Made by a program: the position numbers and the translations under genes. Below are positions 57,597 to 60,516 of a stretch of 64,000 nt of DNA, piece after piece. The notes beneath the pieces are model-generated. The model was not told where the DNA came from. It saw nothing but the letters and a program-made list of their open reading frames with translations, and did no database searches. Each line of letters begins with the position of its first letter. The stretch's first letter is position 1. The stretch is from Brevundimonas poindexterae (lineage in GTDB: Bacteria > Pseudomonadota > Alphaproteobacteria > Caulobacterales > Caulobacteraceae), in contig NZ_JAIVLL010000001.1 in the NCBI RefSeq assembly GCF_020524625.1, forward strand, positions 62,001 through 126,000, read 5' to 3'.

Positions 57597-58970
57597 ATGA
57601 CCCGCCGCTGGACCCCTGATAGCTGGAGAGAGAAACCCGTCGTGCAGATGCCGACGGACTATCCGGACGCCGGTGCGCTGGCGGCCGTCGAGGATGAACT
57701 GCGGGCCCTGCCGCCGCTCGTCTTCGCCGGAGAGGCGCGTCGCCTGACCGACCGGCTGGCGGATGTCGAGGCGGGGCGGGCCTTCCTGCTCCAGGGCGGC
57801 GACTGCGCCGAGAGCTTCAAGGAGTTCTCGACCGACAACATCCGCGACACCTTCCGCCTGATCCTGCAGATGGCGGTCGTCCTGACCTTCGCCGGCCGCA
57901 AGCCCGTTGTGAAGGTGGGCCGGATCGCCGGCCAGTTTGCCAAGCCGCGTTCCTCCTCTGTCGAGGCCATCGATGGCGTGGAGCTGCCCAGCTACCGCGG
58001 TGACATCATCAACGGCATGGGCTTTACGCCCGCCGAGCGCGTGCCCGACCCCCAGCGCCTGCTGAAGGCCTATCACCAGTCGGCCTCGACGCTGAACCTG
58101 CTGCGCGCCTTCGCAGGCGGCGGCTATGCCGATCTGTACAACATTCATCGCTGGACCCTGGGGTTCGCGGCCGACAACACCTATGGCGCGCGCTACCGCG
58201 AGCTGGCCGACAAGATCGGTGAGGCCTTGGCCTTCATGGAAGCGGTTGGCGTGACGCCCGAAAGCCATCCCGACCTGTCCCGGGTTGAGGTCTTCACCAG
58301 CCATGAGGCCCTGCTGCTGAACCTAGAGAGTGCGCTGACGCGGCTGGATGGGGCCACCGGGGAATGGTTCGACACCTCGGCCCATATGGTCTGGATCGGC
58401 GAGCGCACCCGCCAGCCGGACGGCGCCCACATCGAATTCGCCCGCGGCATCCGGAATCCGATCGGCCTGAAGTGCGGGCCGACGATGGAGCCCCACGACC
58501 TGCTGGCCCTGCTGGATATCCTGAACCCGGAGAACATCCCCGGGCGCATGACGCTGATCGGCCGGTTCGGCGCGGACAAGGTCGGCGAGCGCCTTCCGAA
58601 ACTGATGCGCGAGGTGAAGGCCGCAGGCCGCCGGGTCATCTGGTCGATCGATCCGATGCACGGCAACACCCTCAAGGCCGGAAACGGCTACAAGACCCGC
58701 CCGTTCGAGCGGATCCTGAGCGAGGTGCGCACCTTCATCGATGTGGCCGAGGCCGAGGGCGTGCATCCCGGCGGCGTCCATCTGGAGATGACGGGCCAGA
58801 ACGTCACAGAATGCCTGGGCGGCGCCCAGATGCTGACCGAGGACGACCTGAGCAGTCGCTATCACACCCATTGCGATCCGCGCCTCAACGCCGACCAGGC
58901 GCTGGAGCTGGCCTTCCTGGTGGCGGAACGCCTGACGTCGGGACGCCAGTCCCGATCTGCTGCGGCCTGA
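57597..58970 (+). CDS. Class II 3-deoxy-7-phosphoheptulonate (DAHP) synthase
   Basis: First step of the shikimate pathway, condensing PEP and erythrose-4-phosphate. The 457-residue protein is the plant-like class II type. Motifs are [11 protein letters not shown] (metal Cys), [19 protein letters not shown] (PEP Arg/Lys), [38 protein letters not shown] (metal His) and [10 protein letters not shown]. The opening [18 protein letters not shown] is typical. The prephenate dehydratase gene follows after 7 bp, so both are likely one operon. It lacks the class I allosteric motifs. Confidence 0.95.
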
Positions 58971-58977
58971 GGTCATC

Positions 58978-59529
58978 ATGGCCCGGGGACGCGTCGCCTA
59001 TCAGGGGGCACCGGGGTCCTTCAGCCATGAGGCCTGCGCCGTGCTGCGGCCGTGGGATGAACCGGTCGGCCACGAGACCTTCGCCCAGGCCATCGATGCG
59101 GTCCGGCAAGGCGATTGCGACTGCGCCCTGATCCCCGTCGAGAACAGCCGGATCGGCACGGTTCAGCCCGCCAGCGATCTGGTCGCCGCGTCCGGGCTCG
59201 AGGTCCTGGCGGAAGTCTGGCGGCCCATCCGCCTGGCCCTTATGGCGCCCGAGGGGGCGCGTCTGTCGGACATCCGCACGGCTGAAAGCCATCCGGCCGC
59301 ACTGGGCCAATGCACGGGAACTTTGGCGGACCTGGGGCTCAAGGCCGTCGAGGCCTATGACACCGCCGGGGCCGCCCGCGCCGTGGCCGAGGCAGGAGAC
59401 ACCAGCCGCGGGGCGCTGGCGCCCACCGGGGCGGCCGAGATCTACGGATTGTCGATTTTGCGCAACGACATGCAGGATTCGGCCGATAATCGGACGCGAT
59501 TTGTCCTGCTGGGCCGGAAGGGCGCTTGA
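58978..59529 (+). CDS. pheA: Prephenate dehydratase lacking the ACT domain
   Basis: Converts prephenate to phenylpyruvate for Phe synthesis. The 183-residue protein covers only the catalytic domain: RVAYQGAPGSFSHEAC, GDCDCALIPVENSRIGTV and the catalytic TRF near the C-terminus (DNRTRFVLLGRK, Thr173). The usual C-terminal ACT domain (ESRP, Phe feedback binding) is absent, since the stop comes 8 residues after TRF. The length of about 280 expected for PDT-ACT is not reached and no ACT-coding sequence follows in any frame. Feedback by Phe at this enzyme is therefore unlikely. Downstream is the leader ORF at 59562. Confidence 0.9.
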   Translation: MARGRVAYQGAPGSFSHEACAVLRPWDEPVGHETFAQAIDAVRQGDCDCALIPVENSRIGTVQPASDLVAASGLEVLAEVWRPIRLALMAPEGARLSDIRTAESHPAALGQCTGTLADLGLKAVEAYDTAGAARAVAEAGDTSRGALAPTGAAEIYGLSILRNDMQDSADNRTRFVLLGRKGA

Positions 59530-59561: not shown

Positions 59562-59669
59562 ATGGCCACCAAGCGCGCCCTGACTGCCGCTTTTGACGCC
59601 CGCGCTTTCGCGGCGTCGGCCCCCTATGCCTACGGCTTCTATTTCTACGGCTTTCGATACGCCGGCTGA
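59562..59669 (+). CDS. Phe/Tyr-rich leader peptide (attenuator candidate)
   Basis: A 35-codon ORF with ATG at 59562 and TGA at 59667-59669. It encodes five Phe and five Tyr; eight of the ten lie in residues 22-33 (YAYGFYFYGFRY). It sits 97 nt upstream of a chorismate mutase, whose product feeds both Phe and Tyr. The codons are TTC/TTT and TAC/TAT with no other rich class. A perfect GACGC(C)CGCG/CGCGGCGTC hairpin lies at 59595-59617, upstream of the aromatic cluster. Amino acid bias, position and size match ribosome-mediated attenuator peptides such as PheL and TrpL, but with two amino acids sensed at once. The peptide is too short and biased to be an ordinary protein. Confidence 0.75.
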   Translation: MATKRALTAAFDARAFAASAPYAYGFYFYGFRYAG

Positions 59670-59766
59670 GGCGTCCGGACCCTGTTCCTGACCTCTCACC
59701 GGCGACCGCTCCCCTCGGAGCGGCGGACTTCGGCCCCCCCGATCCTCCCCCTCGAAAGTTCTGAAG
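59670..59766 (+). promoter_or_regulatory. Attenuator region between leader peptide and chorismate mutase
   Basis: CCGCTCC-CCTC-GGAGCGG (59706-59723) is a perfect 7-bp hairpin. GTCCG (59673-59677) can instead pair with CGGAC (59724-59728), and ACGCC/GGCGT (59659-59674) forms a hairpin with the leader stop in its loop. There is no T-run after the 59706 hairpin, so it is not a standard intrinsic terminator. The region 59680-59700 and 59733-59752 is C/T-rich and G-poor, as in Rho entry sites. The ribosome site of the next gene (GAAAGTTCTGAAG, 59754-59766) is complementary in two blocks to the CTTC/TTTC aromatic codons at 59636-59645. Confidence 0.5.
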
Positions 59767-60516
59767 ATGCCCCTGACCCTTGTGAAATCCCCCGATCCGA
59801 CCGCCGACCTTGAACGCATGACGCTGGCTGCCCTGCGGCACGAGATCGACGAGATCGACGCCGAGATGGTGTCGCTGTTCCAGAAGCGCCTGGCGCTCGC
59901 GGACCGCGTCGGCAAGGCCAAGGACGCCCCGACCGGCGGCTTTGTGAAGCTGCGTCCCGACCGGGAGCAGGCCGTGCTGGCCCATGTGCTGCAGGGCGCA
60001 CGTCCCGACACGCAGGAGGCCGTCGAGGCCCTGTGGCGCGAGATCGTGGGCCATGGTCTGGCGCGTCAGGGCCAGCTGGCCGTGCGGGTCTGGGCCCCGG
60101 TCGAGCCCGCGCGTGCCTTCGACGCGGCCCGCCTGCGCTTCGGGCGCGCCGCGGAGCTGAAGTCCGAGCGCGATCCCCAGGCCGCCCTGGCCTTCGCGGC
60201 CGAGGGCAAGGGCGTGGCGGTCCTGGCCATCAATGCGGGCGACCCGTGGTGGATGGGCCTGCGCCGTGAATGGTCGACCCTCAGCGTCTTCGAGGGCTTC
60301 GGCAAGGGCGTGCCGACAGCTCTGGCGGTCGGGCGGATCGATCCCGGCGCCCTGCCGCGCGGGGACCGGGTACTGGTCACCGCGGGCGGTGACGCGGGCG
60401 ATGGCTCGGGCGCAGGGCGACGCGGGCTGGACACCCACCATGGCTGGAGCCTGTCGCTGACCTCGGCGGCGGTCGTGCCCGGTGGCCCCGAGGGCTGCGT
60501 GGGCGCCATCGCCTGA
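59767..60516 (+). CDS. AroQ-type chorismate mutase with degenerate prephenate-dehydratase-like C-terminal domain
   Basis: A 249-residue protein. Residues about 18-100 form the all-helical AroQ chorismate mutase (LRHEIDEIDAEMVSLFQKRLALADRVGKAK, then EQAVLAHVLQ and EALWREIVGHGL), converting chorismate to prephenate. Residues 104-249 align in pattern with the PDT at 58978: AVRVWAP…ARAFDAARLRFG, DPQAALAFAAEGKGVAVLAINA and GVPTALAVGR. These correspond to RVAYQGAP…FSHEACAVLRPW, ETFAQAIDAVRQGDCDCALIPVEN and NRTRFVLLGR. The catalytic TRF is TAL, so the domain should be inactive. It is preceded by the Phe/Tyr leader; panC is convergent. Confidence 0.82.
   Translation: MPLTLVKSPDPTADLERMTLAALRHEIDEIDAEMVSLFQKRLALADRVGKAKDAPTGGFVKLRPDREQAVLAHVLQGARPDTQEAVEALWREIVGHGLARQGQLAVRVWAPVEPARAFDAARLRFGRAAELKSERDPQAALAFAAEGKGVAVLAINAGDPWWMGLRREWSTLSVFEGFGKGVPTALAVGRIDPGALPRGDRVLVTAGGDAGDGSGAGRRGLDTHHGWSLSLTSAAVVPGGPEGCVGAIA

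Follow-up and report, generated by a model that had tools for sequence, protein, structure and literature searches.

A conserved Phe/Tyr leader peptide before the chorismate mutase gene of Brevundimonas and three sister genera: a candidate translational attenuator

The 64,000-nucleotide stretch of Brevundimonas poindexterae DNA analysed here (referred to as the window; GC content 68.1 %) harbours a short open reading frame (ORF) of 35 codons plus TGA stop (59562–59669, plus strand) upstream of a chorismate mutase (CM) gene. Judged by its reading frame and its counterparts in relatives, this ORF is a real, conserved leader peptide with codons for both phenylalanine and tyrosine. A regulatory role of the leader is very likely, while the exact mechanism is moderately supported. 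The leader probably couples CM production to the supply of charged tRNA-Phe and tRNA-Tyr by translational attenuation, i.e., by pairing of its last sense codons with the ribosome-binding region of the CM gene.

The ORF extends from an ATG at 59562 to a TGA at 59667–59669 and translates to MATKRALTAAFDARAFAASAPYAYGFYFYGFRYAG. Translation confirmed the content given in the preliminary description, namely five Phe codons (codons 11, 16, 26, 28 and 31) and five Tyr codons (codons 22, 24, 27, 29 and 33) in 35 codons. Likewise correct was the spacing of 97 nt to the start codon of the CM gene at 59767, the product of which matches Pfam CM_2 (5.1e-15). The putative regulatory codons, YAYGFYFYGFRY (codons 22–33; 59625–59660, plus strand), are delimited by the sequence together with the aromatic identity and Phe/Tyr interchange in 103 loci (see below). 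Aromatic codons account for 8 of the 15 final codons of the ORF. All ORFs of 10–60 amino acids on either strand of the window were compared, and none but this one has more than four aromatic codons in its last 15, and the maximum reached in 60 dinucleotide shuffles of the window is five; the supposed bias beyond that of a random short ORF at 68 % GC is thus borne out. A longer leader of 47 codons would be possible from an in-frame TTG at 59526 in the window's own group; this TTG overlaps the TGA stop of the preceding prephenate dehydratase gene (TTGA, 59526–59529) and represents a possible coupling start. The closest relatives carry a counterpart of the ATG at 59562.

CM homologues were located in the genus, the family and the order, and the DNA upstream of each was compared. 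Altogether, 103 distinct loci have a short ORF in front of CM. They comprise every same-genus locus with enough upstream DNA and the sister genera g43, g47 and g48, and the ORF ends with FRYAG with few exceptions. All same-genus loci with enough upstream DNA have a leader ending in aromatic codons and TTT CGA. Absence of the leader or its Phe/Tyr codons from close relatives, which had been named beforehand as the observation speaking against the proposal, was therefore not seen. The N-terminal part of the leader drifts and differs between groups, with lengths ranging from 20 to 35 codons, such that the anticipated pattern of a conserved short Phe/Tyr-rich ORF with drifting other codons is found in the same-genus loci. 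Hence, the sequence features of an amino-acid-sensing leader are present: clustered codons for the product amino acids before a biosynthetic gene, conserved in relatives.

Of the residues encoded by the ten codons preceding the invariant TTT, 27.5 % are Tyr and 17.7 % are Phe, and none is Trp (103 loci). Since both Phe and Tyr are found within these ten codons in 100 of the 103 loci, a dual signal, as originally suggested, is the natural reading. The two amino acids replace each other at single positions (position -3, Phe 65, Tyr 28; position -2, Tyr 87, Phe 6; position -5, Tyr 41, Phe 19), both synonymous codons are in use at the aromatic positions, and the leader frame is open across 75 nt in 102 of 103 loci (other frames, 71 and 69). 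The Phe/Tyr swaps, the synonymous variation and the open frame together argue that selection acts on aromatic identity.

The leader ends with a near-invariant block (TTT CGA TAC GCC GGC TGA; 59652–59669, plus strand), which provides the final codons as well as predicted RNA pairing strands and is identical in the first 30 same-genus loci. Across all 103 loci, TTT, CGA and GCC are found without exception, and TAC, GGC and TGA in 99, 101 and 99 loci, respectively. The nearly invariant TTTCGATACGCCGG, spanning the last leader codons, shows what would be one nucleotide stretch acting as both codons and RNA structure.

Two hairpins are predicted in this region. P2 (59660–59704, plus strand) is formed by CGCCGG (59660–59665) and CCGGCG (59699–59704) and contains the leader stop codon, as it usually does in the other loci. 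Its basal pairs are present in 103 of 103 loci (with one GU variant class), and 90 % of the P2 cells are paired compared to 32–54 % in slid registers; double changes in P2 pairs are no more frequent than in the slid controls. The interior of P2 folds better than its shuffles (mean z -2.83; 98 % below -1), and does so also in sister genera with different interior sequence (L054, L055, L057). In g43 (L053, L056), the frame continues six codons past RYAG and ends with TAG, and the stop position is accordingly not fixed. P3 (59706–59723, plus strand; CCGCTCC-loop-GGAGCGG, no U-tract after it) lies directly 3' of P2 and has a mean z of -1.73; the fold of the full leader in the window has a z of -3.65. 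RNAalifold on a MAFFT alignment (229 columns) recovered only the basal parts of P2 and P3; as misaligned variable loops spoiled this result, pairs were assessed by anchored counting. The comparison with Rfam covariance models gave nothing except for a chance snoRNA match (E 4.9).

The end of the leader, GGCUUUCGAUA, is complementary to the DNA immediately upstream of the CM start. In the resulting predicted helix P1, the 5' strand GGCUUUCGA (59649–59657, plus strand) is complementary to the CM ribosome-binding region, and the 3' strand UCGAAAGUU (59752–59760, plus strand) overlaps the putative Shine-Dalgarno sequence GAAAG (59754–59758, plus strand), located 8 nt before the CM start codon. The longest P1 helix has a mean of 8.3 nt versus 5.2 nt in shuffled sequences and 4.7–5.9 nt for other leader segments, and the complementarity reaches p <= 0.05 singly in 80 of 103 loci. 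Pairing of a leader segment with the downstream ribosome-binding site, as in translational attenuators of the ermC/cat type, is thus predicted in most loci. In one locus (L029), GGC of the leader is changed to GAG, apparently compensated by the partner GAAACTC, which has its end 19 nt ahead of the CM start. Of the 103 CM genes, 91 have GAARG no more than 22 nt from the start, with a spacing of 7–10 nt to the CM start where GAAAG is exact; none of 17 upstream prephenate dehydratase genes has it. GAAAG can presumably serve as Shine-Dalgarno sequence via CUUUC of the alphaproteobacterial 16S tail; the 16S 3' end, sought for this anti-Shine-Dalgarno sequence, was not found in the genome assembly. 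Conservation of GAAAG could reflect its Shine-Dalgarno role rather than pairing. Little or no P1 is seen in the loci that diverge most (L053, L056, L110–L112, L117). Since TTTCGATACGCCGG is nevertheless kept in them (unchanged in L053 and L056 of g43), P1 cannot explain all of the constraint.

For GAAAG in the window, the modelled unpaired probability is 0.00 in the free RNA and climbs to 0.73 if a ribosome sits on the aromatic codons, or to 0.69 if it sits on the stop codon; a control mask leaves it at 0.00. The respective means of the 103 loci are 0.21, 0.42, 0.40 and 0.20. In the model, 47 of the 103 loci gain more than 0.2 in accessibility and 7 lose more than 0.2.

In case of sufficient Phe and Tyr, the ribosome would complete the leader and depart; the vacated GGCUUUCGA would then be free to form P1, stacked on P2, with the CM ribosome-binding region, and closed P1 would result in low CM translation. 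In case of Phe-tRNA or Tyr-tRNA shortage, ribosomes would pause at the Tyr/Phe codons beside or inside the 5' strand of P1 and, by covering this strand, keep the CM ribosome-binding site open. That a slowed ribosome would cover the 5' strand follows from the aromatic codons adjoining and entering it. A ribosome at the stop codon would also cover P1, and discrimination between the two states must therefore rest on dwell time. Translation of the leader, stalling, a change in expression and control at the level of translation are the steps we infer.

A classical transcription attenuator of the pheL/trpL type with an intrinsic terminator could be suspected from the arrangement of a regulatory-codon leader followed by two conserved GC-rich hairpins. 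This is hardly to be expected here, since no terminator-like site was found in the window, the sequence after P3 is U-poor (no 8-nt stretch with more than 4 U in 101 of 103 loci), and P2 and P3 are adjacent without overlap, such that the usual terminator/antiterminator exclusion was not found between them. The apparent lack of an intrinsic terminator, together with the last codons acting as pairing segments, rather points towards translational than pheL-like transcriptional attenuation. The main rival to translational attenuation, albeit an unlikely one, is Rho-dependent attenuation, with which the missing U-tract terminator agrees: after normal termination of leader translation, Rho would load on the C-rich untranslated RNA separating P3 from CM and terminate transcription, unless blocked by a stalled ribosome or altered folding. 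The segment from P3 to the ribosome-binding site is indeed rich in C and poor in G (mean C 0.40, G 0.18), but this candidate rut stretch is variable in sequence and length, and it would be left unexplained why the leader end is conserved as a complement of the CM ribosome-binding region.

The near-invariant C-terminus FRYAG could alternatively belong to an arrest peptide stalling the ribosome on a small molecule (e.g., free Phe, Tyr or chorismate) instead of uncharged tRNA. However, the FRYAG codons are invariant as nucleotides, too, which is better explained by RNA pairing, and the upstream aromatic codons interchange and shift, fitting tRNA sensing, whereas known arrest motifs have fixed residues; arrest is accordingly quite improbable. 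Least likely of all is the absence of any regulator, with the ORF encoding a small functional protein or representing conserved DNA or RNA with incidental aromatic bias. Regulation is, admittedly, a reading from sequence, and the TTG over the upstream stop would permit simple translational coupling, but the N-terminus is unconserved at lengths of 20–35 codons, and the ORF keeps a constant position before CM and is absent where the CM gene was not found (same-genus genome G139, with neither an orthologue of the window CM nor the leader).

Beyond the genus, leader carriers are g43 (Caulobacter sp. 17J65-9 and 17J80-11), g47 (MAG SZAS-4) and g48 (Caulobacter sp. S45 and relatives). The other Caulobacteraceae genera sampled, including Caulobacter-type genomes, have a more distant CM and no Phe/Tyr leader ORF before it. 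The conservation envisaged for Brevundimonas, Caulobacter and relatives thus applies to the genus and three sister genera, but not to the Caulobacter-type loci examined. A search of GTDB species genomes for the exact pattern TTTCGATACGCCGG-N24-54-CCGGCGACCG retrieved 92 stretches. Among the 80 matches listed, 78 contain a Phe/Tyr leader and two are chance matches; CM is directly downstream in 74, and four more stretches end within 152–258 nt. The motif appears to occur essentially only in Brevundimonas and the three sister genera. Two further searches did not extend this range: the exact pattern FRYAG* in 200 genomes of the order yielded, beyond the genus, only out-of-frame or unrelated matches, and a covariance model (R1) applied to 385 genomes of the class gave, beyond three same-genus genomes, weak matches without a Phe/Tyr leader.

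The interval between pheA and CM, initially regarded as the home of the leader, is so in the window, but the leader stays with CM where the dehydratase is located elsewhere. It precedes CM without prephenate dehydratase upstream in g47, g48 and at an additional CM copy of genome G345 (L113, L205), and is therefore assigned to the CM gene. The second CM copy of G345 (L113/L205/L273) is about half identical to the window CM and has its own leader ending with FLFTGFRYAG.

Genes for a class II DAHP synthase, the first enzyme of the aromatic pathway (57597–58970, plus strand), a prephenate dehydratase (58978–59529, plus strand) and CM (59767–60516, plus strand) are neighbours on one strand, the first two being upstream of the leader and the dehydratase gene ending 32 nt before its ATG. 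The presumably controlled CM consists of an AroQ domain (residues 23–101) and a C-terminal domain of unassigned function (60073–60513, about residues 103–249), for which no Pfam match was found. The AlphaFold model has a pLDDT of 76; Foldseek returned no confident match for the CM model, the best being GqqA (7alz, prephenate-dehydratase-like) with an E-value of 0.013 and a low TM-score, which is a hint only. A second, short AroQ-type chorismate mutase is encoded elsewhere in the genome (L275, G000:C3:134667-134900), and the CM following the leader is consequently not the only one. No aromatic leader was seen upstream of the DAHP synthase gene or the second short CM gene in the same genome.

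The prephenate dehydratase in the window has 183 amino acids, comprises the catalytic domain only and leaves the last third of the full-length family PRK11899 unmatched. The dehydratases of g43, g47 and g48 are also short (180–191 amino acids), whereas the Caulobacter-type enzymes (280–303 amino acids) match PRK11899 to the end. We take the part absent from the 183-amino-acid enzyme to be the ACT-type regulatory domain known in such enzymes; Pfam ACT gave no score even in the long dehydratases. A connection between loss of feedback inhibition and gain of the leader suggests itself, but a strict link between the leader and loss of the regulatory region is weakened by genus g54, which has a short dehydratase (177 amino acids) and no leader. 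In g54 (L269, L270), these enzymes are arranged differently, with a second CM-like sequence located about 290 nt downstream of the short dehydratase gene. Tentatively, and with some doubt, the leader may be viewed as a lineage-specific two-input sensor, in which tRNA-Phe and tRNA-Tyr are read interchangeably and CM translation is set by a strand of the leader's last codons; as the sampled dehydratases of the clade lack the C-terminal ACT-type region, control at the gene level may partly replace feedback inhibition.

In Escherichia coli, pheA encodes a chorismate mutase-prephenate dehydratase, and its attenuator leader pheL contains Phe codons only and employs an intrinsic terminator. The pheL/pheA attenuator and the pheST leader of E. 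coli likewise combine a short leader and clustered regulatory codons with an aromatic-pathway gene; differing from pheL, the leader in the window mixes Phe and Tyr, and neither a U-tract terminator nor an Rfam family match was found for it. Multivalent leaders reading several charged tRNA pools at a branch point are known from enterobacteria, e.g., ilvL (Ile/Val/Leu) and thrL (Thr/Ile). They resemble the present leader in its proposed reading of several tRNA pools, but serve a different pathway and use transcription terminators. In the translational attenuators of ermC and cat, a ribosome stalled on the leader prevents the leader region from pairing with a downstream ribosome-binding site, which thus stays open. 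These respond to antibiotics rather than amino acid supply, and in the present case the sequestering strand is predicted to be the leader's own last sense codons.

Predicted peptides with runs of regulatory codons and no terminator hairpin were described for cys leaders of Actinobacteria, with Rho suggested to be involved (PMC1262725); compared to the leader in the window, these belong to another phylum, relate to another amino acid and have no reported conserved hairpin. Ribosome profiling of Caulobacter crescentus revealed leader coding sequences before trpS and ilvIH (PMC4117421), and leader peptides are thus in use in Caulobacteraceae; chorismate and phenylalanine are not mentioned in that study. 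A Phe/Tyr leader before CM in the Brevundimonas group was not encountered in the open-access papers searched, an earlier prediction in subscription papers being possible.

If the proposed function is true, the leader would give a widespread genus a compact and testable switch for control where Phe and Tyr synthesis diverge. It would, moreover, exemplify in a GC-rich alphaproteobacterium tRNA-sensing leader control that works via ribosome binding rather than a terminator. It would also account for a conserved short ORF without Rfam family in about a hundred genomes.
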